DNA of 33,026 nucleotides from Ferrithrix thermotolerans DSM 19514. Lineage in GTDB: Bacteria > Actinomycetota > Acidimicrobiia > Acidimicrobiales > Ilumatobacteraceae. The notes beneath the pieces were generated by a model. That model did no database searches. It saw only the letters and a program-made list of their open reading frames with translations, and had not been told where the DNA came from. The stretch covers positions 1 through 33,026 of the forward strand of contig CAMASN010000034.1 of the NCBI GenBank assembly GCA_945861025.1, read 5' to 3'. Both the position numbers and the translations under genes were made by a program. Below are positions 13,841 to 32,370 of this stretch, one piece after another. Positions within the stretch are counted from its first letter, which is position 1, and each line of letters starts with the position of its first letter.

Positions 13841-14992
13841 ATGCTCACCAACCTCGATGACTATCCAATCCATCAGTTGCCCGAACCCATGCAGCATGTG
13901 GGCACCACCGATCGCAACTTCTACGACCGGTACTACTTCAACGGTTTCGACAAGTCCGGTGAATGCATGTTCATTCTCGGCTTGGGCGTGTACCCCAACC
14001 TCGGGGTCATCGATTCGTTTCTTGCCGTGATGCACAAGGGTCAATACAACGTGGTGCGCGCATCACGCGAGCTCGAGGGCGTCGATCGCTTGCACCCCAG
14101 CGTTGGCCCGCTCAGCGTCGAAGTCATCGAAGGCCTCAAGCGTCTTCGCGTTGTGTGCGAGCCCAACGAATGGGGCATCACTATCGACGCCACATGGACC
14201 GGCGCTCATGCTCCGTTCGAAGAACCTCGCCACTACATCCGCGAGAACGGCCGGGCAATTTTCGACACCACTCGTCTTGCGCAGCTCGGCGGGTGGGACG
14301 GCGAACTCACCGTCGACGGCAAAACGTTCTCGCTCACCGAGGCCACTTGGTGGGGATCACGTGATCGCTCGTGGGGCATTCGGCCAATCGGCGAAAGCGA
14401 ACCACAGGGCATCCGTGCCAAGAACCCATTCAGCTGGTTCTGGGTCTATGCGCCCATTCGTTTCGAGGATCACTCGATGGTCGTGATGATTCAAGAACGC
14501 CAAGACGGCAGCCGCGTGCTTGAAGAAGCCGTGCGGTTATGGCCCGCCGAAACCGGCCGCGAACCCGAGTTCTTCCACTCGCCGCGTCATGCACTCGAGT
14601 TCACTCCCGGCACGCGTTTCAGCACCGGCGCTCACCTGATGATGGACGCCGCCGATGGGACAACCATCGACATCACGGCCGAGCCACTCATCCCAATCCA
14701 CATCGGCATTGGCACCGGCTACGGCTACGACGCCGATTGGCGCCACGGCATGTGGCAAGGCGCCGAACCGGTGGTGCAGCACTTCCATCTCGACACCAAT
14801 ACCGCCGAGGGCAAGGCGCGCCTTTTCGGCATCGTCGATGCGGGCGCGCGGTTCACCTACACCGATGACCGCGGTACGCATGTGGGCTACGGCCTCTACG
14901 AGACGATGATCATCGGACCGCACAAGCAGTACGGATTTGTCGACATGCTCGATGGCTACGCGGGCCCAAGCACTGGTAATGCCACGCAATGA
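13841..14992 (+). CDS. DUF7064/AttH-like protein of a catabolic operon
   Basis: A 383-residue soluble protein rich in beta strand, aromatic residues and Gly, without signal peptide or membrane segment. Blocks such as DRYYFNGFDKSGECMFILGLGVYP, FEEPRHYIRENGRAIFDTTR, the WWGSRDRSWGIRP motif and GYGLYETMIIGPHKQYGF resemble the AttH/lipocalin-related proteins (DUF7064/DUF7065) commonly found beside acyl-CoA synthetases and F420 enzymes in actinobacteria. That family is not biochemically defined as far as I know; a hydrophobic-ligand or hydratase role would be a guess. The family call is from memory of these motifs and moderately sure. It overlaps the synthetase start by ATGA, so they are translationally coupled. 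Confidence 0.7.
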   Translation: MLTNLDDYPIHQLPEPMQHVGTTDRNFYDRYYFNGFDKSGECMFILGLGVYPNLGVIDSFLAVMHKGQYNVVRASRELEGVDRLHPSVGPLSVEVIEGLKRLRVVCEPNEWGITIDATWTGAHAPFEEPRHYIRENGRAIFDTTRLAQLGGWDGELTVDGKTFSLTEATWWGSRDRSWGIRPIGESEPQGIRAKNPFSWFWVYAPIRFEDHSMVVMIQERQDGSRVLEEAVRLWPAETGREPEFFHSPRHALEFTPGTRFSTGAHLMMDAADGTTIDITAEPLIPIHIGIGTGYGYDADWRHGMWQGAEPVVQHFHLDTNTAEGKARLFGIVDAGARFTYTDDRGTHVGYGLYETMIIGPHKQYGFVDMLDGYAGPSTGNATQ

Positions 14993-16560
14993 GTCGCACG
15001 TTCAACTTGGCCGACCTGTTCGAGGTCATCGCCGATGCCGTTCCCGACCGCACCGCGGTAGTGGCCGGCGGTCAGCGCCGCACCTATCAAGAGCTCGACG
15101 ACCGGGCCACCAGGCTCGCCAATCACTTACACGCCAACGGCGTCAACAAGGGCGACCATGTAGCCATTCATGCAATGAACTGCGCCGAGTGGGTCGAGGC
15201 GTTCTTCGCCTGCTTCAAGCTCAGCGCAGTTCCAATCAACGTGAACTATCGCTATGTCGAAGCCGAGTTGCGCTATCTCTACGACAACGCCGACAGCATC
15301 GCCGTCATCGTCGAGCCACAGTTCCGCGAGCGTCTCGATGCCGTATTGGCCGATCTGCCCGGCGTGCGCCACGTGCTCGAAATCGGCCCCGACTACGAAG
15401 CAGCCCTGGCCGCAGCGTCACCCGAGCGCCCGAACTTGGGCCGCTCGAACGACGACCTCTACATGCTCTACACCGGCGGTACCACCGGCATGCCCAAGGG
15501 CGTGATGTGGCGTCACGAAGACACGTTCTTCGCAACAATGAACAGCGCTCGCTACGGCAAAGAGCTTGAGCAGCCCGAAGATCTGGCGGCCGAAGTCACG
15601 GCGTCGCCAACCTCGATGACCATGATGGCCATTGGACCGATGATGCACGGCGGTGCGCAGTGGATGCTCGGCAACACCATCTTCATTGGCGGCACCATCG
15701 TGTTATACACCGAGCGCGGCTTCGACGCTGATGCCGTGCTACGCATCATCGAGCGCGAACACGTGAACAGCGTGAACACTATTGGCGACGCGATGGCACG
15801 GCCACTCGCCGAGGCCATTGCGGGTGCACCGGCTGGCACCTATGAACTGTCGTCGCTCTTCGCATTTGGCAACGGCGGCGCTCCGCTATCGGCAGCAGTG
15901 CGCGAGCAGCTCACCGCAGCGTTGCCTACCGCCGTCATCATGGACAGCTTTGGTGCTTCTGAAACTGGCGCCACCGGCAGCAAAGTCGACGCAGGCGAAG
16001 GCTTTGGAGCACCACGTTTCGCGATGGGTCCACACACCACCGTGTTGTCCGACACCGGCGAGCAATGCGAGCCAGGCGTCACCGGCAAATTGGCACGCAC
16101 CGGCTACATCCCGCTCGGCTACTACAAAGACCCCGAGAAGACTGCAGCCACGTTTCCTACCTTTGCGGGCAAGCGTTGGGTTGTGCCCGGCGACTTCGCG
16201 CGCATCGAGGACGACGGCACCATCAGCCTGCTGGGGCGCGGTTCGGTCAGCATCAACTCGGGTGGCGAGAAGATCTATCCCGAAGAAGTCGAAGCCGTAC
16301 TCAAGAAGCACCCGGCTGTATTCGATGCAGTTGTCGTGGGCACGCCCAACGAACGCTGGGGCGAGCAAGTCACCGCAATCGTTCACGTGCGGCCCGGCCA
16401 CGAACTCTCTGAGGCCGACGTGAAGACTCACTGCCGCACCGAACTCGCCGACTACAAGGCACCACGAACCGTGCTGTTCCTCGGCGAGATTCAGCGCACT
16501 CCGGTCGGCAAGGCCGACTACACGTGGGCGAAGAAAACGGCGCTCGAGCTCATCGGTTAG
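14989..16560 (+). CDS. Acyl-CoA synthetase (AMP-binding, FadD19/FadD17-like clade)
   Basis: A 523-residue adenylate-forming enzyme that activates a carboxylic acid to its CoA thioester. The phosphate-binding loop YTGGTTGMPKG is at 161-171 and is followed by VMWRHEDTFF, a signature of the FadD19-type clade that includes steroid side-chain CoA ligases. DSFGASETG (A5 region), GDFARIEDDG (A7), GRGSVSINSGGEKIYPEEVE (A8) and the C-terminal RTPVGKADYTWAK lysine (A10) are intact. It ends the operon controlled by operator A; the next gene starts ten bases on but is of a different kind. The natural acid is unknown; steroid or branched acids are plausible from the clade. Confidence 0.92.
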   Translation: MSRTFNLADLFEVIADAVPDRTAVVAGGQRRTYQELDDRATRLANHLHANGVNKGDHVAIHAMNCAEWVEAFFACFKLSAVPINVNYRYVEAELRYLYDNADSIAVIVEPQFRERLDAVLADLPGVRHVLEIGPDYEAALAAASPERPNLGRSNDDLYMLYTGGTTGMPKGVMWRHEDTFFATMNSARYGKELEQPEDLAAEVTASPTSMTMMAIGPMMHGGAQWMLGNTIFIGGTIVLYTERGFDADAVLRIIEREHVNSVNTIGDAMARPLAEAIAGAPAGTYELSSLFAFGNGGAPLSAAVREQLTAALPTAVIMDSFGASETGATGSKVDAGEGFGAPRFAMGPHTTVLSDTGEQCEPGVTGKLARTGYIPLGYYKDPEKTAATFPTFAGKRWVVPGDFARIEDDGTISLLGRGSVSINSGGEKIYPEEVEAVLKKHPAVFDAVVVGTPNERWGEQVTAIVHVRPGHELSEADVKTHCRTELADYKAPRTVLFLGEIQRTPVGKADYTWAKKTALELIG

Positions 16561-16570
16561 ATTTCGCCGC

Positions 16571-18076
16571 ATGCATCTCGGTGGCCGCGCAGCAACGGGC
16601 GCCGCCATTGGCGTAGCGGCGCTCAGCGGTGCCGTTATTGTCTACGCAACCCGCCACGACCCGGTGTTGTCGCCAGACTCAATCAGCTATCTCTCGGCCG
16701 CCGCGCTGTTTCGTTCAGGGCGCGGACTCACCGAGTTCAGCGGACAACCACTCACTGTGTTTGGTCCCGTCTTCCCAATGTTGCTTGCGGCGGGCGGTCG
16801 CAACCTGCAATGGGCGCGCGTTGTTGGCGCCGCTTGCATCGTGTGCGCAACGTGGCTGATGTTCGTACTGTTGCGGTCGCGAGTTCGCCCGTGGGTTGCT
16901 GTCGCTGGTGCAGCCGCATTCGCACTGGGCCCAGGCCTTGTATACATCGGCTCCACGGTCTGGAGCGAGAACCCCTACATCGTCATCTCATTGACCGCGC
17001 TCGCCGTGCTCACAATGCGACCGCTCACCGAACGAACCGCAGCTCTCGGCGGCCTCCTGTGCGCGCTCGGTTTCCTCACCCGTTATGCGGGCGTGGGGCT
17101 CATCGCCACCGGGGCGGTGTGCGTGCTTGCCGCCGCTCAACAGATGGGTCTTGAGCGACGCCACGCGTTGCGGCTGTTCTCGATTCACATCGCTACGACA
17201 ATCACCGTGTGCGCTGCGTGGATGATTCGAAACCTTGTGCAAGCCGGCGAAGCACTAGGACCAAGGTTCTCGGGTGGCAGCCCCGAATCGATCGGCCGAC
17301 TCACCAACCGAGTCACTTCGGGCATCGGTGCACTGATATTCGGCAACACGGCGAGCAAAGGCGTGACCACCAACGGGGGCACTGTGATCACCGTGCTGCT
17401 CGCGGTTGCGATCGTCATCACGATGATTTCCGGAACTCGCCGCGTGCTTGATTTCACCATGGCAGCGTTCGCACTCACATCGTTGGCGCTGCCGGCCATT
17501 GCGCGGCATTTCACCGCGAGCGACATTGAGTTCAGAGTGATGTCGCCAGCGCTCATTCCCATCGTCTACTTCGCGGCCGTGATGCTCGAGCGCATTCGAT
17601 TGCGAGCGGTGATCGCCGCGCTCGCCGTCGTAGTAGTTGGCTGGTCCGCGTACGAAGGCGTTGCCGTGGCCGACCGCGTGCCAGATGTGGTTGCCATCGC
17701 AGCGGGGTCGCGTACGCAGACATCGAAGGCACTCTTTGACCTCATCGACACGCTGCCCGCCGACGCACATGTGCTCACCAATAGCCCCCAACGGGTGTGG
17801 TGGCAGACCGATCGCAATCCCACGTTGTTCGCGTTTGTGCGGCCACGCGCCGGCAACAGCAACTATCCGCTCAGCGTTGCCGACACGCTGCGCTACGCGT
17901 GTCTGCCGCACACGTATCTCGCTTGGTTCGCAACGTTGGCTAACGCTGGCGATGGGCCCGCCGATCGTCGCCCCGATCTCGCCGAAGTCATCGATCTCAC
18001 GGTTGCGCAGAGTGTGAATGGCGGCGTGTTGTACACGTTGCGCGCGCACGTTGCGGCGCAGTGCCCTGCGGGCTGA
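16571..18076 (+). CDS. Polytopic membrane protein, GT-C glycosyltransferase-like
   Basis: A 501-residue membrane protein with about ten hydrophobic segments and a soluble C-terminal region from about 380. After the first segment, D36 in LSPDSISYLSAA occupies the place of the conserved acidic residue of the first periplasmic loop in GT-C (PMT/ArnT-type) glycosyltransferases, and WSENPYIVISLTAL continues the pattern. These enzymes transfer sugars from polyprenyl-phosphate donors outside the membrane. The C-terminal domain (SNSPQRVWWQTDRNPTLF) resembles that of other actinobacterial members. The start ATG lies ten bases after the synthetase stop, so it may be read through from that operon despite an unrelated role. 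The family is inferred from topology and one motif. Confidence 0.65.
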   Translation: MHLGGRAATGAAIGVAALSGAVIVYATRHDPVLSPDSISYLSAAALFRSGRGLTEFSGQPLTVFGPVFPMLLAAGGRNLQWARVVGAACIVCATWLMFVLLRSRVRPWVAVAGAAAFALGPGLVYIGSTVWSENPYIVISLTALAVLTMRPLTERTAALGGLLCALGFLTRYAGVGLIATGAVCVLAAAQQMGLERRHALRLFSIHIATTITVCAAWMIRNLVQAGEALGPRFSGGSPESIGRLTNRVTSGIGALIFGNTASKGVTTNGGTVITVLLAVAIVITMISGTRRVLDFTMAAFALTSLALPAIARHFTASDIEFRVMSPALIPIVYFAAVMLERIRLRAVIAALAVVVVGWSAYEGVAVADRVPDVVAIAAGSRTQTSKALFDLIDTLPADAHVLTNSPQRVWWQTDRNPTLFAFVRPRAGNSNYPLSVADTLRYACLPHTYLAWFATLANAGDGPADRRPDLAEVIDLTVAQSVNGGVLYTLRAHVAAQCPAG

Positions 18077-18145
18077 GCGGGCCTTCTATCTCTTCGGTGG
18101 CGGGCACCCACGTAGCTCGAATGCCGATCGCGCTCGGTATTCGCC

Positions 18146-18298
18146 CTACGGCAGGTATGCGCCGAGTACTGCCTGCTCGGTGCCGGGTTCCACAACGTGA
18201 GCCCACGTGTTGGCAAACGCGGCGGATGAGTGGCCGTTGCTGGCACATCCGACGCATACCGCCGCGATCAACACGACGGCGAGCGGCGATGAGCGCAC
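18146..18298 (-). CDS. Possible small lipoprotein, 50 residues
   Basis: From a GTG at 18298 a 50-residue frame reads MRSSPLAVVLIAAVCVGCASNG and then a short polar tail ending in VLGAYLP. The basic start, hydrophobic core and VCVGC-ASNG junction resemble a lipoprotein signal, although Cys at position -3 of the lipobox is unusual. It starts 12 bases after the stop of the oxidoreductase on the same strand. The tail is very short and the frame may be the remnant of a longer gene, or chance. No ribosome-binding site stands out. Confidence 0.4.
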   Translation of the reverse strand: MRSSPLAVVLIAAVCVGCASNGHSSAAFANTWAHVVEPGTEQAVLGAYLP

Positions 18299-18309
18299 TG
18301 TGGCCCGAG

Positions 18310-19290
18310 CTATGCGAACTCGGGCAAGACGGCTTCGGCCACAAGGCGGATCGAGGACCACGCCTCATCGATGGGCATACCGCCGCACATTGGATGCAAC
18401 GTAAGCGCATCAAATGGTCCCAAAGTCTTACAGCGCTGCACGCATTGCTCGGGCGTGAGGATTTGGTACGTGCCTTCGGCGCGCAGTTCGTCGACGGTGG
18501 TGGCAGTGCTATGCACCGCCGACTGGATGTCGGGCGTTTGCCAACCGGCGTACACCTGAGCCTCATGCAAGAAGTGATGCCCCAGCTCGGCCCATGCCCT
18601 ATCTGGGTCTTCGGAGACGTGAACCATGGCTGTCTCGGCCGATGCCGCCATGAAGAACCCGCCGGTTCCGTTGGCTGTGCATTGTTCGTTGTAGTACTCG
18701 GCGAGACCGGGAACCTGTGCCGCGGCGAAGAATGGCAGACCGAACCGGGCGGCACGTCGCGCAGCAATTCTGCTGGTGCCACCGAGCATCAAGATCGGGT
18801 GCGGCGCGCTTTGCGGAGCAGGCGTCACCTGCACGGTGGCGCCGCGATACTCGAATGGTTCGCCGGTCCACGCCTGTCGCATCACGGCGATGGCTTCGTC
18901 CATCAGAGCGCCGCGGGTTGCCCAGTCTTTACCGTGGGCCGCGTATTCCTCGGGGCGATAACCGATGCCAGCGATGACCACCAGGCGTCCACCGCTGGCG
19001 AGATCAAGCGCAGCGATGTCTTCGGCGATACGCAACGGATCGTGCAGCGGCACCAGCAACGCCGACAGGGTGACCTGCAGGTTCGTTGATGCCCCAAAAA
19101 TGAGGCCCGCCAAGATCAGCGGCGACGAACTCCACCCGTTGGGCGCGCCGTGATGTTCCTCCAGCGAGACGCCAGAGAATCCGTGTGCATCGGCATAACG
19201 AACCATGTCGAGCATTGCCCGATGACGACGGCCGTTCTCGGCCCGATCTGGTTCGGGCATCACCATATTGAAACGCATCAGAGCTCGCAT
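18310..19290 (-). CDS. LLM-class flavin-dependent oxidoreductase
   Basis: A 326-residue luciferase-like enzyme. The N-terminus MRFNMVMPEP leads into YADAHGFSGVSLEEHHGAPNGW, the EEHH motif of flavin (FMN/F420) luciferase-like proteins, then QVTLSALLVPLHDPLRIAEDIAALDLASGGR, VIAGIGYRPEEY and the cofactor strand PILMLGGTSRIAARRAARFG. The C-terminal segment YQILTPEQCV is usual. Substrate and cofactor are not determinable. The ATG at 19290 is used; the ATG at 19278 (MRFN) fits the family start equally well and neither has a good ribosome-binding site. It is divergent from another luciferase-like gene 60 bases away, so the two may be co-regulated. Confidence 0.88.
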   Translation of the reverse strand: MRALMRFNMVMPEPDRAENGRRHRAMLDMVRYADAHGFSGVSLEEHHGAPNGWSSSPLILAGLIFGASTNLQVTLSALLVPLHDPLRIAEDIAALDLASGGRLVVIAGIGYRPEEYAAHGKDWATRGALMDEAIAVMRQAWTGEPFEYRGATVQVTPAPQSAPHPILMLGGTSRIAARRAARFGLPFFAAAQVPGLAEYYNEQCTANGTGGFFMAASAETAMVHVSEDPDRAWAELGHHFLHEAQVYAGWQTPDIQSAVHSTATTVDELRAEGTYQILTPEQCVQRCKTLGPFDALTLHPMCGGMPIDEAWSSIRLVAEAVLPEFA

Positions 19291-23083: not shown

Positions 23084-23797
23084 TCAGACGGTGGGCACGC
23101 GACCCGTCGCCCGATCGGACGCAATCTGCGTGCCCATCTCGGCAAGCAGCTCGCCACGCAGCGCCCGCACGGTGCCTGCGTATGCCCGGCCGTTGAGCGC
23201 AGCCAGCTCGGTAGCGCGAGCAACAGCGACATCGAGCACGGCATCGACTGGAGCAACCTCGTCGAGATACCCAACATCGACAGCGCCACGAGCATCGGTG
23301 ACTCGCGCTGTGGCTACTGCCAACTGCAGGTGGCGGCGGCTCAAACGCTCGACCGCAATGTTGAACGCCCAGTCGGGCAGCACCATACCGATAGCAACTT
23401 CGTTGAGGCCGATCTTGCAATCGACATCGGCGCCGATGCGCACGTCGCATCCGAGCAACAACAGCGCACCAGCCGCCAATGCGTGACCGGTGCACGCGGC
23501 GACCACCGGGATGGACGAACCGTAGAGACGACTCACGAGTTCACCACCGTCGCACACCAGGTTGGCCATCGCCGAGATGTCGCCACCGCGCATCACCGAA
23601 AGGTCGAAGCCGGCACAGAACTTGCCCTCGCGTCCGTGCAACACCACCGCACCGATTGAGTCGTCGGCTTCGGCCTGATCGAGCGCCGCGCCGATAGCGC
23701 TAATCATCGACGACGACAGCGCGTTGGCCTTGCCGTCATCAAGGTGCACAACCAGCACCGAATCGCGGCGTTCGACGGAGACATGTTCTGAAGTCAT
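23084..23797 (-). CDS. Enoyl-CoA hydratase/isomerase (crotonase) family protein
   Basis: A 237-residue crotonase-fold protein. The oxyanion-hole strands are GREGKFCAGFDLSVM (56-70) and CTGHALAAGALLLLGCD (102-118). At the first catalytic position, where hydratases have Glu in GGGCEL, this protein has Leu (GALLLL). The second Glu is kept as E133 in GLNEVAIGM. It may therefore be an isomerase, hydrolase or other crotonase rather than a standard hydratase. It is divergent from the DUF35/thiolase operon, with palindrome B in the shared gap, so it probably acts in the same pathway. It is short for the family (usually about 260), lacking part of the C-terminal helical region. Confidence 0.88.
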   Translation of the reverse strand: MTSEHVSVERRDSVLVVHLDDGKANALSSSMISAIGAALDQAEADDSIGAVVLHGREGKFCAGFDLSVMRGGDISAMANLVCDGGELVSRLYGSSIPVVAACTGHALAAGALLLLGCDVRIGADVDCKIGLNEVAIGMVLPDWAFNIAVERLSRRHLQLAVATARVTDARGAVDVGYLDEVAPVDAVLDVAVARATELAALNGRAYAGTVRALRGELLAEMGTQIASDRATGRVPTV

Positions 23798-23905: not shown

Positions 23906-24388
23906 ATGTCCGGTGGAACCTCCGAATACTCCATTGCCGCCGATGGCTCCTTCACGGCGCCACTCGAGCTTTCCTATCCATACAAGCGCACGGTCGGCCC
24001 GATCCTGAGCCGCTTCCTCACAGGCCTGCGCGATCAGCGCATCGAGGGCACCAAAGGAAGCGACGGACGTGTGCACGTACCGCCCGCCGAGTTCGATCCG
24101 ATCACTGGCGAGCATCTCACCGAGTGGGCCGACGTGGCATCTACGGGCACCATCGTCACGTGGTCGTGGCAGCCCGCTCCAGTAGAAGGCAACACGTTGC
24201 AGCACCCATTCGCATGGGCGTTGATTTCGCTTGATGGCGCCGACACAAATGTGTTGCACGCAGTCGACGCAGGAAGAGCCGACGCAATCAAAACCGGCAT
24301 GCGCGTGACCGCTCGCTGGGCCGACGAACCTTCCGGCAGCATCACCGACATCGTGTGCTTCGACCTCACCTCAGGGAGCCCAGCATGA
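23906..24388 (+). CDS. OB-fold DUF35-type protein without zinc ligands
   Basis: A 160-residue protein of the DUF35 (Zn-ribbon plus OB-fold) type. The ribbon is present in shape but has lost all metal ligands: where the next gene has C-P-V-C and C-A-K-C, this one has GSDG (51-54) and DPITG (64-68), around the shared RVHVPP turn. The OB-fold follows (STGTIVTWSWQP; PFAWALISLDGAD; TGMRVTARW). DUF35 proteins partner thiolase-fold enzymes and bind or deliver their acyl-CoA. It overlaps the next gene by ATGA. A metal-free and a metal-binding DUF35 protein in tandem suggest a heteromeric complex. Confidence 0.85.
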   Translation: MSGGTSEYSIAADGSFTAPLELSYPYKRTVGPILSRFLTGLRDQRIEGTKGSDGRVHVPPAEFDPITGEHLTEWADVASTGTIVTWSWQPAPVEGNTLQHPFAWALISLDGADTNVLHAVDAGRADAIKTGMRVTARWADEPSGSITDIVCFDLTSGSPA

Positions 24389-24876
24389 GCGACGACGTTC
24401 TGCGCATTCGCACACCCATCGGCATCAAGTATCAGTACTCGGCCGGACCCCGCGTGAGCAGCCATCTGCTCGGACTCATGGAGGGTCGCTTCGTTGGCAA
24501 GCGTTGCCCCGTGTGCGAACTGGTCTACATGCCTCCCCGAAACGGAACGTGCGCAAAGTGCGGCGCGTTGCTTGGCGAAGACGTAGAAGTGAGCCAGCGC
24601 GGCACCATCACCACCTTCTGTGTGGTCAACGTGCCGTTCCTTGGCCAGACCATCAAGATCCCCTATGTCTCGGCCACGATTCTTCTCGATGGCGCCGACA
24701 TGGGCATGCAACACCTCATCCAAGAAGTCGATGCAGCCGACGTGCGCATGGGCATGCGCGTCGAGCCAGTGTGGAGGCCTCGCGAAGAGTGGCAGCCATC
24801 ACTAGAGAACGTGATGCACTTCCGCCCAACCGGCGAACCCGATGCCCCATTCGATTCCTACGCGGGTCACTTGTGA
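24385..24876 (+). CDS. Zn-ribbon OB-fold DUF35 protein
   Basis: A 163-residue DUF35 protein. An N-terminal helix (SSHLLGLMEGRFVG) leads to the rubredoxin-like zinc ribbon with C41, C44, C56 and C59 (CPVC and CAKC around YMPPRNGT), followed by the OB-fold (RGTITTFCVVNVPF; IPYVSATILLDGAD; GMRVEPVW). Homologues such as the DUF35 domain of ChsH2 bind the aldolase Ltp2 in steroid side-chain degradation. It is coupled by ATGA to the metal-free paralogue and precedes two thiolase-fold genes, the usual order for such complexes. The substrate is not shown by the sequence. Confidence 0.92.
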   Translation: MSDDVLRIRTPIGIKYQYSAGPRVSSHLLGLMEGRFVGKRCPVCELVYMPPRNGTCAKCGALLGEDVEVSQRGTITTFCVVNVPFLGQTIKIPYVSATILLDGADMGMQHLIQEVDAADVRMGMRVEPVWRPREEWQPSLENVMHFRPTGEPDAPFDSYAGHL

Positions 24877-24891
24877 GCCGGGAGATCAGTC

Positions 24892-25944
24892 ATGCGTGAA
24901 GTAGCCATCATCGCGTCGGCACAGGCCGACAACACTTCAACCACTACCTCGACTCCTGTCGAGATGTTGATTCCGGTGATTCAACAAGTACTCGCTAACG
25001 CCTCGATGACCAAAACCGACATCGGTTTTTGGTGCCACGGCAGTTGCGACTACATGACCGGTCAGCCGTTCAGTTTCGTGTCGGCTGTCGACGCACTCGG
25101 AGCATGGCCGCCGATCATCGAAAGCCATGTCGAGGCCGACGGAGCCTTCGCTCTCTACGAGGCGTGGCTGAAGATTCAGACCGGCGAGATCGATACGGCG
25201 TTGGTGTTCGGCAACGGGCGCAGCAGCAGCGGCGACATCAACCGCATCCTTACATTGCAACTCGATCCGTATGTCGTTGGACCGTTGTGGCCCGACGATC
25301 GCTCTATCGCTGCAATGCAAGCGCGTGCGTGTCTCGAGTCGGGCGTTGTAACCGAACGAGCCATGGCCGAAGTTGCTCAGCGCAACCACCGCAATGCACT
25401 CACCAACCCCAAGGCACTACGCAGTGGTGACCATTCGATCGAGGCCTTGATGGCGGCACAGTTGGTGGCTGATCCGTTACGAGAACTTGATTGCCCTGCC
25501 CACGCCGATGGCGTAACCGCGGTGATCATCGCTGCCGGCGATAGGGCCCGCAGCCTCGTCGCCCGCCCAGCATGGATCCGAGGCATCGATCACCGCATCG
25601 AGTCGCAGAACCTTGGTAACCGGTCGATGACCACCTTGCCATCGGCCGCGCTTGCGGCCCACAAGGCCGGCGTCGGCAACGACAAAATCGATGTTGCCGA
25701 ACTGCATGCGCCGTACAGCCACCAAGAGCTCTTGCTCACCACTGCACTCGGGCTCAGCGAGTCAACAACGATCAACCCAAGTGGTGGCGCGCTCTGCGCG
25801 AACCCAATGATGTCCGCTGGTCTCGCCCGCTTCGCCGAAGCAGCGACCCGCGTCATGAACGGCACCGCCGACCGCGCCATCGGGCATGCGTCATCGGGTC
25901 CATGGATGCAACAAAACCTCGTGTGTGTATTGGAAGGTGAGTGA
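24892..25944 (+). CDS. Thiolase-fold lipid-transfer-like protein, catalytic Cys replaced
   Basis: A 350-residue thiolase-superfamily protein. In the nucleophile region ESHVEADGAFALYEAW, alignment with the usual ACASGG-x-AL places Glu (E81) where thiolases have the catalytic cysteine. The second half has VAELHAPYSHQELLL in place of the NEAFA-like His motif and NPSGGALCANPMMSAG for the glycine loop. It is thus unlikely to be a classic thiolase; it may be a Ltp2-like aldolase subunit or a structural partner. GGGAG lies before the ATG at 24892. It ends in a one-base TGATG overlap with the second thiolase-fold gene, consistent with a heteromer. Confidence 0.85.
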   Translation: MREVAIIASAQADNTSTTTSTPVEMLIPVIQQVLANASMTKTDIGFWCHGSCDYMTGQPFSFVSAVDALGAWPPIIESHVEADGAFALYEAWLKIQTGEIDTALVFGNGRSSSGDINRILTLQLDPYVVGPLWPDDRSIAAMQARACLESGVVTERAMAEVAQRNHRNALTNPKALRSGDHSIEALMAAQLVADPLRELDCPAHADGVTAVIIAAGDRARSLVARPAWIRGIDHRIESQNLGNRSMTTLPSAALAAHKAGVGNDKIDVAELHAPYSHQELLLTTALGLSESTTINPSGGALCANPMMSAGLARFAEAATRVMNGTADRAIGHASSGPWMQQNLVCVLEGE

Positions 25945-27101
25945 TGGCTGAGCGTTGTGCTGTCATCGGCGTTGGGCAGACCCAGCACACTTCGTGCCGG
26001 GCCGACGTCTCTATTGCGGGCCTCGTCCGTGAAGCTGTAGATCGTGCGCTCGAGTCGGCTCAGCTCACGATGGCCGACATCGACGCGATCGTTATCGGCA
26101 AGGCCCCAGACATGCTCGAGGGTGTGATGATGCCCGAGTTGTGGCTCGTCGACTCACTCGCAGCGGCCGGTAAGCCCGTGTTCCGCGTGCACACCGCAGG
26201 CAGCGTTGGCGGCTCCACCGCAATCGTTGCCGCACAGCATGTGATGTCGGGCGTGCACAAGCGTGTACTCACCGTTGGCTTCGAAAAGCAGAGCGACGGC
26301 AACGCTATGTGGGCGCTGTCGGTGCCAATGCCATTCGGTATGCCTGTGCACGCAGGTGCCGGCGGCTACTTCTCGCCAATCATCCGCTCGTACATCAAGC
26401 GCAGCGGCGCACCAGCGCACATTGGTTGCATGGTGGCCGTGAAAGACCGCACCAACGCGTGCCGCAACCCATACGCGCATCTGCACGAGCCCGATTGGAC
26501 ACTCGAAAAGGCGATGGCCAGCCCGATGTTGTGGGATCCAGTGCGCATGGTCGAGACCTGCCCAAGCAGCGACGGCGCAATGGCATTGGTGCTCGCCAGC
26601 GAAGATGTCGCCGATGCCCACGACGGCCCCAAGGCATGGGTTCACGCCACCGCAATGCGCAGCGAGCCAACCTCATTTGCCGGTCGCAATCAGGTGAGTC
26701 CCAAGGCCAGCGAAGACTGTGCCAACGACCTGTGGCGTAAGGCTGGCATCACCTCACCAATCGACGAAATCGATGCTGTCGAGATGTACGTCCCGTTCGC
26801 CTGGTTCGAACCAATGTGGCTCGAGAGCCTCGGCTTTGCCCCCAAGGATCACGGCTGGCGCTTCGTTGAAGACGGCGTCACCGAGATGACCGGTCGTTTA
26901 CCGGTGAACTGCAGCGGCGGTGTGTTGTCAACGAACCCCATCGGCGCCAGCGGCATGCTGCGCTTCGGCGAGGCCGCAATGCAAGTGATGGGTATTGCCG
27001 GCGAGCATCAGGTCGACAGCGTGCGTAAAGCATTCGGTCACGCCTATGGCGGCGGCAGCCAGTTCTTCGCAATGTGGGTCGTCGGCAAAGACAAGCCCTA
27101 G
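25944..27101 (+). CDS. Second thiolase-fold protein (Ltp-like), catalytic Cys replaced
   Basis: A 385-residue thiolase-superfamily protein. The nucleophile region FRVHTAGSVGGSTA has Gly (G86) where the catalytic Cys would be. VEMYVPFAWFEP (Y282) corresponds to the VEVYDCFT-like motif of lipid-transfer proteins, and VNCSGGVLSTNPIGASG to the glycine loop; GHAYGGGSQFF closes the protein. The ATG at 25944 is chosen for its overlap with the previous stop; a GTG three bases earlier is possible. With the two DUF35-type proteins and the preceding paralogue it probably forms a carbon-carbon lyase or condensing complex acting on an acyl-CoA. Retro-aldol chemistry is an inference from the Ltp2 family. 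Confidence 0.87.
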   Translation: MAERCAVIGVGQTQHTSCRADVSIAGLVREAVDRALESAQLTMADIDAIVIGKAPDMLEGVMMPELWLVDSLAAAGKPVFRVHTAGSVGGSTAIVAAQHVMSGVHKRVLTVGFEKQSDGNAMWALSVPMPFGMPVHAGAGGYFSPIIRSYIKRSGAPAHIGCMVAVKDRTNACRNPYAHLHEPDWTLEKAMASPMLWDPVRMVETCPSSDGAMALVLASEDVADAHDGPKAWVHATAMRSEPTSFAGRNQVSPKASEDCANDLWRKAGITSPIDEIDAVEMYVPFAWFEPMWLESLGFAPKDHGWRFVEDGVTEMTGRLPVNCSGGVLSTNPIGASGMLRFGEAAMQVMGIAGEHQVDSVRKAFGHAYGGGSQFFAMWVVGKDKP

Positions 27102-28485: not shown

Positions 28486-28501
28486 TTGCATGTGCAACTA
28501 C
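28482..28501. terminator. Perfect palindrome holding both convergent stop codons
   Basis: GTAGTTGCA-TG-TGCAACTAC is a perfect inverted repeat with 9-base arms. It contains the TAG of mtr (28483-28485) and, on the other strand, the TAG of the acyl-CoA synthetase (28500-28498). RNA from either side can form a 7-8-bp hairpin. No T-run follows, so it is a bidirectional terminator or stability element only by inference. Confidence 0.55.
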
Positions 28502-30159
28502 TTAGTGTCGGCGATTTGACGCTGCAACTCGCGCTTGAGGATCTTGCCCGACGCGTTACGCGGCAGCGCCTCGGTGAAGAAGACCACGTGTGCTGGCACC
28601 TTGAACGAGGCCAAACGCACCGCAACGTGATCGCGAATCTCTTGTGCCGTGAGTTGTGCGCCAGCCTTGACCAAAATAGCTACCGCTACCTCTTCGCCAA
28701 GACGTTCGTGTGGAATACCAAACACTGCCGCCTCGTGCACGCTGTCGTGATCGTAGACAGCGGCCTCAACCTCGGCGCAATACACATTTTCACCAGCACG
28801 CAGAATCATGTCCTTCACGCGGTCTTCAACGTAAATGAATCCCTCGTCGTCGAGATGACCAAGGTCGCCCGACCGCAGCCAACCGTCGACGATTGTCTCG
28901 GCTGTTGCCTCTGGGCGATTCCAGTAACCGCGAATGAGGTTCGGGCCTTTGAACCAGATCTCGCCGCGCTCGCCCACTGACAGCGCATTGCCCTCGGGAT
29001 CGCGAACGCCAATGGTCATGATCGGGACAACGCGACCTGAACTGGTGGGCTTATTCACGTAATCCTGGCCACGGTTGCCTGGGCCATACGCATTGGTCTC
29101 GGTCATGCCGTAGCCGATGGTGGGCTTGCCCTTGGCGAAGCTGCTCGAGACCTTCTCGACCAATGCTGGTGGCGCAGGTGCTCCACCGCCACCGATGTCG
29201 CGCAGACTCGATGTATCAAACTCGCTAAAACGTGGTGAGTGCACGAGATCCCAACTCTGGGTTGGCACGCCCACAAAGTTCGTGACGTGCTCACGCTCGA
29301 TCAACTCGAGCGCCTTGTCGGCATCCCACTTGTACATGATGACTAGCTTCACGCCGCCGGCGAAGCAGCCGAGCATCACGGGCACGCAACCGGTGACATG
29401 GAACAGCGGCACAATCAAGATGAACGCGGGCGGATGCGTGAGCGGCTCAGATGGTTGGCGCAAGCGCTCGGCAGCGGCACGACACGAGAACGCCATCATC
29501 GCTTGAATGATCGCGCCATGCGTAGACACCGCACCCTTTGGCCGCCCGGTGGTGCCCGATGTGTACAAAATAGTGGCGTCGTCGTGCGGACCAATGTCGA
29601 CCTGCGGCATCGGCGTGCCGGCAATGACGACGTCGTTCCATGTGTCGACGCCAGCGGGAACCGTGTCGAGGCGAACGCCGATGATTCGCGTGCCCAACCG
29701 GACGCACGACGACAACGAGCGATCAATGCGGATGTCGTCGGCGATGAGCACCTTGGCACCGCAATCTTCGAGAGCGAAGTCCATTTCGTCTTCAGTCCAC
29801 CACGAGTTCATCGACACCGAGATGGCGCCGATTGAAGTGATCGCGGCAAACGCAATCACCCACTCGGGAAAGTTGCGCATCGCAACCGCAACGCAATCTC
29901 CCTTGCGCACTCCGTAACGCTCAAACAGGGCCGCTCCAAGCGCAGCGCTTGTCTCGCGAACCTGACCGAACGTGTAGTTCTCGTCTTCGTAGACCAAGAA
30001 CGTGGACTCGGCAGGCGCCGACGCATAGAACGCTGTGAGGTTCGATGGGGCGTTCACAAACACCCGCTGCATCGAGCCGTTAATCAGCGCATCGCCGATC
30101 TCAAACTGGCCGCCAGCCGCGGTTGTCTGCCCCATTGCCTCATCAAATGTAATCCCCAT
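28498..30159 (-). CDS. Acyl-CoA synthetase (long-chain fatty acid-CoA ligase type)
   Basis: A 553-residue adenylate-forming enzyme making an acyl-CoA from a free acid, ATP and CoA. Motifs are YTSGTTGRPKG (199-209), the PLFHVTG region, GYGMTETNAYG (A5), DGWLRSGDLGHLDDEGF (A7), EDRVKDMILRAGENVY (A8) and the C-terminal PRNASGKILKREL lysine (A10). All are intact, so it should be active. It belongs to a different branch from the synthetase at 14989, having S-G-T-T-G and R-P-K-G where that one has G-G-T-T-G and M-P-K-G. The ATG at 30159 is the first sensible start; the ATG at 30135 is an alternative. It is divergent from the OYE-type gene, with palindrome C between them. Confidence 0.93.
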   Translation of the reverse strand: MGITFDEAMGQTTAAGGQFEIGDALINGSMQRVFVNAPSNLTAFYASAPAESTFLVYEDENYTFGQVRETSAALGAALFERYGVRKGDCVAVAMRNFPEWVIAFAAITSIGAISVSMNSWWTEDEMDFALEDCGAKVLIADDIRIDRSLSSCVRLGTRIIGVRLDTVPAGVDTWNDVVIAGTPMPQVDIGPHDDATILYTSGTTGRPKGAVSTHGAIIQAMMAFSCRAAAERLRQPSEPLTHPPAFILIVPLFHVTGCVPVMLGCFAGGVKLVIMYKWDADKALELIEREHVTNFVGVPTQSWDLVHSPRFSEFDTSSLRDIGGGGAPAPPALVEKVSSSFAKGKPTIGYGMTETNAYGPGNRGQDYVNKPTSSGRVVPIMTIGVRDPEGNALSVGERGEIWFKGPNLIRGYWNRPEATAETIVDGWLRSGDLGHLDDEGFIYVEDRVKDMILRAGENVYCAEVEAAVYDHDSVHEAAVFGIPHERLGEEVAVAILVKAGAQLTAQEIRDHVAVRLASFKVPAHVVFFTEALPRNASGKILKRELQRQIADTK

Positions 30160-30208
30160 GGCCCACACTCTTACATCCGTAACGCCTGACAACCTCGTCC
30201 AAGTGCGA

Positions 30209-30225
30209 TCTGACGTAACGTCGGA
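30209..30225. promoter_or_regulatory. Palindromic operator, copy C (synthetase / OYE divergent gap)
   Basis: TCTGACG-TAA-CGTCGGA has 7-base arms with one mismatch and shares ATCTGACG with copies A and B. It lies in the 69-base gap between two divergent genes and ends three bases before the GTG of the flavoenzyme. If that GTG is the true start the site lies within the core promoter of a nearly leaderless message; otherwise the ATG at 30247 is used. Confidence 0.7.
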
Positions 30226-30228
30226 TTC

Positions 30229-32370
30229 GTGACCGACTTTCGCACCATGTTGAGCCCCGCATCGATCGGATCGATGACTCTGCCCAACCGGGTGATCCTG
30301 CCTGCGATGGACATGAACCATTGCGATGAGGGTGCCATCACGGTGACCGAGGTCGAGCACTATTCGGCTCGAGCCGCCGGTGGGTGCTCATTGGTAATTA
30401 CTGGGGCCTCAGCGGTCTCGTGGCCCCTCGGAGCCACCTCTCGCAAGCAGCCCGGGCTGAGCGACGACCGTTTCATTCCAGGTCTGACGGCGCTTGCCGA
30501 TGGCGTTCACGCTGCTGGCGGGCGAGTCTGTGTGCAGCTGTGCCACCACGGCAAAACCGCCAGTGTCGACTCGGCCGATGGACGGCCGCAGCTCGTGCCA
30601 AACCCTCCACCAGATCGCATGGATCTGAGCGCGCTCGCCGACAATCCCATCGACGAGCTCATGCGCCTCGCCACGGCAACGCAGGGTAAGCCCGCTACCT
30701 ACAAGTCAGCTACCGCCGACGATTTGGTGTGGGTCGCCGAACAGTTCGCCGACGCTGCGGCGCGTGTGCAATCAGCCGGCTGCGATGCCGTCGAGATTCA
30801 CGGCGCGCACGGATACTTGATCTCCACCTTCTTGTCGTCGGCCTACAACTTGCGCACCGACGAGTACGGCGGCGACCTTTATGGCCGCTCGCGCTTACTT
30901 GTCGAAGTGATTCGCTCTGTTCGTGCACGGGTCGGCGTCGACTTCCCCATCATCGTGCGCCTCAACGGCTGCGAATACGGAATTCCCGGCGGTATCACTC
31001 CCGAAGAAACCGCGGCCACGGCCCGCCTCGCCGAGGCGGCTGGGGCCGACGCCATTCATGTATCGGCCAACGCCGTGAATCCGTTTCGCGACTTCACCCT
31101 TGGCCCACTTCCGGCCGAGGTTGGCCAATACCGCGAGATGGCGGCCACCGTGAAACGCGCTGTGCGAATTCCAGTGATTGCTGTTGGCCGACTGTTGCCT
31201 GAGATCGCCGAAGAAATGCTTGCTGCTGGCGAGTGCGACTTCGTGTCTCTCGGCCGTCAGCAGCTCGCCGATTCCGAACTCGTCAACAAACTCGCCGAGG
31301 GCAAGCGCGCATCGATTCGCCCGTGCATCAACTGTTACGTATGCGTCGAGCAGAACTTCTTCGACGCACCACCCCGATGCGCGGTGAACCCTGCGCTTGG
31401 CCATGAGATCGCTGCAACCCAACAGATTGCACTCACCGCAAGGCCCGTTCATGTCGTCGTTATTGGGGGCGGTCCGGGCGGCCTCGAAGCAGCGCGCATT
31501 GCTTCGCAGCGCGGCCATCGCGTCACCCTGCTCGAGCGCGGTGATCGGCTCGGCGGAACGATGTGGTTCAGCCAACTCACCACGCCAGCGAACGAGATGT
31601 TGGTCGATTGGCTCTGCCACGAAGTTCGCCAGAACGGCGTCGACATCAAGCTCGGGCATACCGCCACCGTCGAATCGATCACGAGAATGCAGCCCGACAT
31701 TGTGGTGGTTGCAACGGGAGCCAAACGTGATCGGCTCGCTGTGCTGGGCGGCGACCTCGACCACGTGCGATCGGGCGACGAGATGCGCGCCCTCATTATC
31801 GGCGACACCGACGACAGTGCCGGCGGAAAACAGTCGCTCCTCAACCGAGCCGCACTCGCCGTCGGACGCACACTGCGACTCACCAAGAGCGCCGACACCA
31901 TCCGATCGTTGTCACGCCGCTGGATGCCCGTGGGCAAGCACATCGTCATCGTGGGCGGAGGCCTTGTTGGTCTTGAGCTCGCCGAGTTTCTTGCCGAGCG
32001 CGACCGCACAGTCACGGTGCTCGAGCAGGGACCGCATTTTGGATTGCCCATGGCAATGCCGCGCCGGTGGACTGCGGTGCTCAAGACCTCGAACCACGGG
32101 GTCACATTGGTGCGCAACGCACAGGTCACTGAGATCACTGCAACCCACGTGCTGTACCAGGTTCACACTGCCGACGGCACGGCGACGGGCGATGTGATCT
32201 CGGTTACCGCAACCGATGTCATCATCGCCAGCGAGGTGCGCAGCGACACCAGCCTTGCCGACCATCTTCGCGACGCAGGCCTTGTTGTGCACGTGGTTGG
32301 CGACGCTGGCGAGGTCGGCTACATCGAAGGTGCGATGCATTCGGCGCATGCGGTAGCAGTGGCTCTCTGA
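30229..32370 (+). CDS. OYE-type NADH:flavin oxidoreductase with Fe-S cluster and FAD domain
   Basis: A 713-residue three-domain reductase like 2,4-dienoyl-CoA reductase and BaiCD/BaiH. The N-terminal FMN barrel begins LSPASIGSMTLPNRVILPAMD and includes CHHGKTAS, EIHGAHGYLISTFLSSAYNLRTDEYGG and the phosphate-binding VSLGRQQLADSE. The [4Fe-4S] ligands are C366, C369, C372 and C384. The FAD site is VVVIGGGPGGLEAA (about 409-422) and the NADH site VGGGLVGLELAEFL. Such enzymes reduce conjugated double bonds of acyl-CoAs, steroids or terpenoids. The GTG at 30229 gives the best length; ATG at 30247 (MLSP) is equally compatible. It is divergent from an acyl-CoA synthetase and behind palindrome C, which ties it to the same catabolic set. 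Confidence 0.93.
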   Translation: MTDFRTMLSPASIGSMTLPNRVILPAMDMNHCDEGAITVTEVEHYSARAAGGCSLVITGASAVSWPLGATSRKQPGLSDDRFIPGLTALADGVHAAGGRVCVQLCHHGKTASVDSADGRPQLVPNPPPDRMDLSALADNPIDELMRLATATQGKPATYKSATADDLVWVAEQFADAAARVQSAGCDAVEIHGAHGYLISTFLSSAYNLRTDEYGGDLYGRSRLLVEVIRSVRARVGVDFPIIVRLNGCEYGIPGGITPEETAATARLAEAAGADAIHVSANAVNPFRDFTLGPLPAEVGQYREMAATVKRAVRIPVIAVGRLLPEIAEEMLAAGECDFVSLGRQQLADSELVNKLAEGKRASIRPCINCYVCVEQNFFDAPPRCAVNPALGHEIAATQQIALTARPVHVVVIGGGPGGLEAARIASQRGHRVTLLERGDRLGGTMWFSQLTTPANEMLVDWLCHEVRQNGVDIKLGHTATVESITRMQPDIVVVATGAKRDRLAVLGGDLDHVRSGDEMRALIIGDTDDSAGGKQSLLNRAALAVGRTLRLTKSADTIRSLSRRWMPVGKHIVIVGGGLVGLELAEFLAERDRTVTVLEQGPHFGLPMAMPRRWTAVLKTSNHGVTLVRNAQVTEITATHVLYQVHTADGTATGDVISVTATDVIIASEVRSDTSLADHLRDAGLVVHVVGDAGEVGYIEGAMHSAHAVAVAL

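Follow-up and report, generated by a model that had tools for sequence, protein, structure and literature searches.

The literature credits the proteins Ltp3 and Ltp4 with removing the C24 branch of plant sterols, which is one of the steps in the use of phytosterols and in the production of steroid drugs. According to a 2019 review citing Wilbrink 2012, sitosterol and campesterol lose their branch through a 'heteromeric aldol-lyase (Ltp3-Ltp4)', and the scheme given there includes a C28-carboxylated intermediate (PMC6678751). The aldol-lyase assignment is repeated in other papers (PMC7807495; PMC8708139; PMC6593523; PMC4761994; PMC6273163), and Wilbrink 2012 is cited for the part that the proteins play in Rhodococcus when sterol side chains branched at C24 are broken down (PMC6678751; PMC7807495; PMC6593523; PMC8708139). 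In Mycobacterium tuberculosis, ltp4 (Rv3522) and ltp3 (Rv3523) follow Rv3520c and Rv3521 (PMC6429209), a KstR site is described between Rv3520c and Rv3521 (PMC1995591), and for a Mycobacterium an induction by phytosterols of about 97-fold for ltp3 and about 96-fold for ltp4 is reported (PMC6593523). Here, we describe a cassette of four genes on a 33,026-nucleotide stretch of DNA from Ferrithrix thermotolerans DSM 19514 (assembly GCA_945861025.1, contig CAMASN010000034.1, positions 1 to 33,026 of the forward strand; this whole stretch is referred to as the window). Judged from its sequence, the cassette very probably encodes an Ltp4 and an Ltp3 protein, and these are preceded by two DUF35 proteins.

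Two related systems provide the catalytic residues against which such proteins can be read. In TcLtp2, Tyr294 of the motif YDHF is described as the base and Tyr344 as the acid, while CtSal uses Tyr302 and Cys304, carries a glycine at the position of the old nucleophile and crystallized as a DUF35-Sal-Sal-DUF35 complex (PMC12329534). For Ltp3 and Ltp4, we found neither a purified complex nor a structure nor catalytic residues in the open-licence literature, outside which most subscription journals lie, and no open-licence paper was found that names both Rv3521 and DUF35.

A conserved four-gene cassette

The four genes share one strand and, just as a first-pass annotation made from the letters alone had described, overlap or adjoin each other:

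23906..24388, plus strand: DUF35a, a metal-free DUF35/ChsH2-C-like OB protein of 160 residues (Pfam PF01796, no zf-ChsH2)
24385..24876, plus strand: DUF35b, a zinc-ribbon DUF35 protein of 163 residues with C41, C44, C56 and C59 (PF01796 and PF12172)
24892..25944, plus strand: Ltp4-type thiolase-fold subunit of 350 residues (NCBIfam NF005924, PRK07937)
25944..27101, plus strand: Ltp3-type thiolase-fold subunit of 385 residues (NCBIfam NF006180, PRK08313)

The genes for DUF35a and DUF35b overlap by four bases (ATGA), those for the Ltp4-type and Ltp3-type proteins by one (TGATG). Both DUF35 proteins contain the OB_ChsH2_C domain (PF01796; 43.5 bits for DUF35a and 50.6 bits for DUF35b, Pfam cut-off 27.1). 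The zinc ribbon that had been claimed for the second of them is confirmed by a match to zf-ChsH2 (PF12172; 31.4 bits, cut-off 23.2) and by its four cysteines. No zf-ChsH2 match was obtained with Pfam for DUF35a, which is indeed metal-free by this measure; the claim that its ribbon cysteines had become Gly and Pro has to be corrected, as a hand alignment places Gly51, Gly54, Asp64 and Thr67 there. Thiolase_C_1 is present in the Ltp4-type (29.5 bits) and the Ltp3-type protein (103.2 bits; cut-off 28), and Thiolase_N exceeds its own cut-off in the Ltp3-type protein only. At the level of subfamilies, the Ltp4-type protein matches NF005924 with 503.9 bits (cut-off 419) and the Ltp3-type protein NF006180 with 658.9 bits (cut-off 514). 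We take PRK07937 to be the Ltp4 and PRK08313 the Ltp3 subfamily, with Rv3522 and Rv3523 as members, and Rv3521 is presumably a double, that is, fused DUF35 protein.

A scan of the genome_contigs collection with the Ltp4-type protein retrieved 106 relatives, the best 80 of which served as named loci; because these loci were picked by similarity to Ltp4, every count made on them presupposes that similarity. They come from genera other than those of the named Ltp3 and Ltp4 proteins and belong to metagenome-derived Actinobacteria and some Proteobacteria (best 80 of 106 loci). The order DUF35a-DUF35b-Ltp4-Ltp3 on one strand and with tight spacing is found in all 80. In 57 loci the two DUF35 parts share a single reading frame, and in the other 23 they are separate, like those in the window. 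The proteobacterial loci (L023, L067, L072, L073 and L083) include two metagenome-assembled genomes of Sterolibacterium as well as Spongiibacter pelagi, and in L073 an EchA19-type gene lies nearby, as does a KstD-like gene (564.8 bits, cut-off 789). A plasmid search with the Ltp3-type protein returned 11 records; several are without annotation, and none of the annotations shown carries an ltp name.

A second sample consisted of 148 genomes drawn from the order of the window's organism, the Acidimicrobiales. Ltp4-type proteins occur in 56 of them at 67 places (E ≤ 1e-60) and Ltp3-type proteins in 57 at 68 places (E ≤ 1e-110). Ltp3 directly follows Ltp4 in 66 of the 67 places, with 2 to 164 bases between the matches. 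The sole unpaired Ltp4 place (genome G025) has its two parts on different contigs, and the only genome with Ltp3 alone (G078) holds a fragment at a contig edge. The four-part order at all 80 loci and the adjacency in 66 of 67 places rule out a chance neighbourhood. Eleven of the 56 genomes (e.g., G002, G143 and G140) carry two copies of each gene, the same genomes for both. These second copies are mostly more diverged from that of the window, and they may serve a second substrate.

Catalytic positions and predicted folds

The first-pass annotation had stated that glutamate (E81) and glycine (G86) replace the nucleophilic cysteine of the two thiolase-fold proteins, and this is borne out. G86 of the Ltp3-type protein sits on the cysteine of SCP2 thiolase (6hsj) in a gap-free stretch. 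E81 of the Ltp4-type protein falls on the nucleophilic cysteine of 7yvy and 6hsj, likewise in gap-free stretches, while the profile alignment with 6esq and the MAFFT alignment each open a gap beside it, so that its register is certain only to about one residue. A conserved cysteine at the nucleophile position, which by the earlier account itself would speak against such a reading, was looked for, and no alignment, including every version made for the Ltp4-type protein, places one there.

The losses extend to the other canonical positions. HDCF and GHP read HAPY/YVPF and ANP/TNP in the two proteins of the window, neither of which thus retains the residues of an SCP2-type thiolase (Cys, HDCF, GHP). 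Tyr282 of the Ltp3-type protein aligns with the catalytic Tyr294 of Ltp2, at which position the Ltp4-type protein has His272 and therefore lacks the tyrosine of a YDxF/Y motif. Pro284 of the Ltp3-type and Pro274 of the Ltp4-type protein occupy the position of Cys304 in CtSal, which corresponds to the histidine of YDHF in Ltp2. Asn331 (Ltp3-type) and Asn304 (Ltp4-type) lie near the position of Tyr344 and the GHP histidine in a hand alignment, a column that MAFFT gaps in Ltp2. A known catalytic acid, be it Tyr344 of TcLtp2 or Cys304 of CtSal, is absent from both thiolase-fold proteins.

Conservation of the replaced positions was followed over 81 rows, that is, the 80 loci plus the window, some rows being nearly identical to the latter. 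In the Ltp4-type family, E77, S78, H79, E81 and D83 are invariant (81/81), N304 is kept in 80 of 81 rows, position 272 is histidine in 77 and tyrosine in two, and the family motif at the HDCF position is HAPF or HAPY. The Ltp3-type family retains RVHTAGSVGG (residues 81-90, including G86) in all 81 rows. Among the rows that have a residue at these positions, Y282 (80 of 80) and N331 (79 of 79) are likewise kept without exception. As the replaced residues are invariant, the sites look remodelled and kept by selection rather than decayed. Decayed pseudo-enzymes are ruled out, given that the replaced positions rank among the most conserved. Thiolase chemistry is unlikely, as had been argued from the start: cysteine is missing from the nucleophile, HDCF and GHP positions, and the replacements are conserved.

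The picture of one degenerate member on each side of the complex, drawn by the first-pass annotation, proved too simple. Both thiolase-fold families carry invariant residues of their own at the old catalytic sites. On the DUF35 side, a CxxC in the ribbon region is found in none of the 81 DUF35a rows, and the ribbon of DUF35b has four cysteines in only 11 rows, three cysteines with Asp or His in 52, and two or fewer cysteines in 18. Zinc is therefore not a constant feature of DUF35b, and the idea that a contrast between a zinc-binding and a metal-free DUF35 protein is the key feature of the system is weakened by these 18 rows.

Structure models cover two of the four proteins, DUF35a and the Ltp4-type protein. 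The latter is predicted with a predicted local distance difference test score (pLDDT) of 84.8 and a predicted template modelling score (pTM) of 0.87, residues 53-73 and 111-132 being mostly below a pLDDT of 50, and E81 is modelled between strand 77-80 and helix 84-96. The model has a thiolase fold, with 6esq_A (Z 41.8, root-mean-square deviation 2.5, 339 residues aligned) and 7pxp_G (Z 38.2, 2.8, 339 residues) as close matches. For the DUF35a model (pLDDT 89.9), the top match in the PDB is the DUF35 domain of ChsH2 (6ok1_B; Foldseek E 2.8e-6, TMq 0.63). A phylogeny of 30 thiolase-fold proteins, a check that had been suggested together with the initial claims, places Ltp3 and Ltp4 in separate clades that join at 89/87 support; we make no claim of a recent duplication because the Ltp3 and Ltp4 branches are long and were flagged as unreliable by the tree program.

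Steroid context and the proposed reaction

Further genes were noted in the window, as was an operon elsewhere in the same genome:

19351..20391, plus strand: F420_Rv3520c-family LLM oxidoreductase (TIGR03559, 456.8 bits, cut-off 335)
14989..16560, plus strand: acyl-CoA synthetase of the PRK07798 subfamily (NF005863, 687.3 bits, cut-off 543)
23084-23797, minus strand: gene of the crotonase family that is divergent from the cassette; homologues of at least 40% identity occur in 3 of the 80 loci, all of them close relatives
28498-30360, minus strand: acyl-CoA ligase that stays below the cut-off of 750 for the steroid-24-oyl-CoA synthetase model (423.7 bits)
30229-32370: Fe-S flavoenzyme resembling BaiCD/OYE that falls short of the cut-off of 825 for the bile-acid BaiCD model (403.3 bits)
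16571-19089, plus strand: two long reading frames for which Pfam gives no match at E 1e-5, although the first weakly matches a glycosyltransferase family (31.4 bits)
C9:7500-13600 of the window's genome (G000, locus L103): Ltp2/ChsH-type side-chain operon

Neighbours were counted within flanks of 6 kb or less per side if they shared at least 40% identity with the single query used for their type; neighbour clustering covered 27 of the 80 loci. A homologue of the F420_Rv3520c-type gene lies near the cassette in 54 of the 80 loci. In 51 of these it is on the opposite strand, an arrangement like that of Rv3520c relative to Rv3521, whereas in the window it is on the same strand. FadA5-type steroid thiolases were counted in 33, EchA19-type proteins in 19 and PRK07798-type ligases in 16 of the loci. 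It is possible that the PRK07798-type synthetase of the window is FadD19-like and a neighbour in the pathway. Neither of the exact palindromic patterns T..AAC..GTT..A and AGAAC..GTTCT, used as a search for a KstR-type site, was found in the window. Among the 148 genomes of the order, 25 of the 35 with KshA_C also encode Ltp4 (Fisher p = 4e-6), as do 16 of the 22 with a KstD-like match (p = 4e-4), shared ancestry being uncorrected in both values. The best 20 of 57 KshA_C matches are spread over 15 genomes, and in 11 of these KshA_C is no more than 10 kb away from Ltp4.

In the genome of the window's organism, an Ltp2 homologue reaches 617.8 bits to TcLtp2 (6ok1_A), has the motif YDHF and adjoins ChsH2, a MaoC protein (27.6 bits, cut-off 27) and two acyl-CoA dehydrogenases. 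The steroid-thiolase family is found above cut-off twice and PRK07798-type ligases six times. Four more places combine DUF35 and thiolase-fold neighbours (C8:26551-27721, C9:38119-39095, C5:62954-64217 and C9:7981-10506); the cysteine at the nucleophile position is kept in the first three and not in the last, the Ltp2 one. Markers of ring degradation were not found in the 95.6%-complete assembly: there is no KshA_C, no KstD (best match 27.2 bits) and no HsaC-type enzyme (48.2 bits at best for the proxy TIGR03213, cut-off 366). Complete sterol degradation is thus unsupported for this organism and, as the side-chain genes are present, a steroid role of the host is supported for side chains only. 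The organism is possibly a side-chain-only steroid degrader.

Together, the data support an obligate, cysteine-independent carbon-carbon lyase pair with DUF35 partners that resembles Ltp2-ChsH2 in plan. This plan, already put forward in the first-pass annotation, gains from the position of Ltp3 after Ltp4 in nearly every place, the frequent fusion of the DUF35 parts, the thiolase fold and the ChsH2-like DUF35 fold. Its further statements that the substrate is unknown and, by implication, the system new do not hold, given the reported role in C24-branched sterol side-chain degradation and the heteromeric aldol-lyase proposed in print (PMC6678751). On balance, we consider it probable that the four genes encode an aldol-lyase of the Ltp3-Ltp4 type with two DUF35 partners that carries out a retro-aldol reaction on a branched steroid side chain; orthology to the named proteins, the complex, its reaction and substrate and the roles of single residues are what we infer here. 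At the centre of the complex, where Sal-Shy has the same protein twice, an Ltp4-Ltp3 heterodimer would stand, and the DUF35 subunits on either side would likewise differ from each other (in many genomes they are fused into one), giving DUF35-Ltp4-Ltp3-DUF35. The substrate would be a beta-hydroxyacyl-CoA in which the branch carbon of the steroid side chain bears a tertiary hydroxyl, and retro-aldol cleavage would split it into a ketone and a short acyl-CoA without passing through an acyl-enzyme. Tyr282 of Ltp3 may take the hydroxyl proton, as Tyr294 does in Ltp2. Since the positions of both Tyr344 and Cys304 are changed, the proton donor should not be of either type; the invariant E77, H79, E81 and D83 on the nucleophile loop of Ltp4 may provide the groups that Ltp3 lacks or give the substrate cleft its shape. 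More tentatively, the complex could be a heterotetrameric aldolase of broken symmetry whose catalytic set is new. The two halves of a Sal/Ltp2-type complex would then have turned into unlike proteins, and the proton donor as well as the oxyanion hole would be formed by residues that Ltp2 and Sal do not employ, for instance E81/H79 of Ltp4 or the invariant RVHTAGS loop of Ltp3; possibly, two unlike pockets act on one carboxylated, branched substrate.

Several points weigh against the retro-aldol reading on steroid side chains. The Ltp4/Ltp3 identity is drawn from subfamily, gene order, size and synteny, with no named Ltp3 or Ltp4 sequence compared. According to the alignment, the Ltp3-type protein has neither the oxyanion-hole histidine nor either of the known catalytic acids. 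To the ring markers missing from the host have to be added 21 of the 56 Ltp4 genomes without KshA_C and without a KstD-like match, none of the 22 KstD-like genomes reaches the KstD model's own cut-off, and the co-occurrence tests take no account of shared ancestry. At the thresholds used, both proteins are lacking in the four further genomes listed for the family to which the window belongs. Finally, Mycobacterium neoaurum strains with single deletions of ltp3 or ltp4 are reported still to convert phytosterols to 4-HBC (PMC10398937), which speaks against a strict need for the genes in that strain.

Some of these observations would fit the same heteromeric lyase acting here on a different substrate, a branched isoprenoid or steroid-like acyl-CoA, in side-chain trimming without ring degradation. 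A host with side-chain genes and no detectable ring markers, the pair-bearing genomes that lack both markers tested and the second pair copies in 11 of 56 genomes are in line with this, but the Ltp2/ChsH-type operon that this genome also carries speaks for steroid C3 side chains and across the order the pair co-occurs with KshA_C and KstD-like matches; we regard a different substrate as rather unlikely. A question within the favoured lyase, and compatible with it, is whether Ltp4 is a non-catalytic scaffold that completes the dimer interface and leaves the chemistry to Ltp3 and one DUF35 protein. Mean column identity is higher in Ltp3 (77%, 22 rows) than in Ltp4 (70%, 33 rows; the row sets differ), Ltp4 is short of about 17 residues between the LGL and NPSGG motifs that are present in Ltp3 and Ltp2, and it has a histidine in place of the catalytic tyrosine of Ltp2. 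The five invariant residues around E81, however, go beyond the needs of a scaffold, and Ltp3 alone would be left without any known catalytic acid. A scaffold role for Ltp4 is therefore conceivable, though we do not lean towards it.

A change of reaction rather than of substrate appears improbable. In a decarboxylase or condensing enzyme, an acidic residue in place of the cysteine could favour enolate formation from a carboxylated substrate, much like the glutamine that takes this place in some ketosynthase-fold proteins, and both the invariant glutamate at the nucleophile site and the C28-carboxylated intermediate of the published scheme (PMC6678751) would suit this, but the tyrosine at the Ltp2 base position in Ltp3 and the published aldol-lyase assignment favour a retro-aldol reaction. 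We see hardly any room for an ordinary beta-oxidation thiolase with a relocated nucleophile: it shares the thiolase fold, yet the alignments contradict it, as no cysteine stands at any of the three catalytic positions and the replacements are family-wide. It was rejected on these grounds.

Comparison with known systems

The type of pair and its proposed substrate were known already; what is added here is that the make-up of four parts is constant and that the non-thiolase sites do not vary, which gives a concrete, testable composition and named residues as targets for mutation. In comparison with Ltp3 and Ltp4 of M. tuberculosis (Rv3523/Rv3522, genes of the KstR regulon) and Rhodococcus rhodochrous DSM 43269, the proteins of the window are alike in size and presumably in subfamily, and they share the order ltp4-ltp3 and the Rv3520c-type neighbour. 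The window differs in that its DUF35 proteins are encoded by separate genes, whereas most of its relatives have one frame, and in that its host genome lacks the ring-degradation markers tested.

BbsB, the benzoylsuccinyl-CoA thiolase of 7pxp, keeps its catalytic cysteine. The same is true, by alignment, of the thiolase subunit in the acetoacetyl-CoA thiolase/HMG-CoA synthase/DUF35 complex 6esq, unlike the Ltp4-type protein, the model of which is close in fold to both structures; each of the two complexes includes a DUF35 subunit. With Ltp2-ChsH2 (TcLtp2, 6ok1), the window shares a thiolase fold devoid of the nucleophilic cysteine, a DUF35 partner and, in the Ltp3-type protein, the tyrosine. 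It differs from that system in having two unlike thiolase-fold subunits and two DUF35 proteins, in the absence of an equivalent of Tyr344 from the pair, and in Pro284 of the Ltp3-type protein standing where YDHF has its oxyanion histidine. The glycine at the nucleophile site is common to the Ltp3-type protein and Sal of Sal-Shy (CtSal, 9myr), but Sal is a self-dimer with the motif YDCY, which contrasts with YVPF in the Ltp3-type and HAPF/HAPY in the Ltp4-type protein. Although Ltp3-Ltp4 would work in a similar manner by our reading, the pair is not filed with Ltp2 or Sal because it has the catalytic acid of neither.

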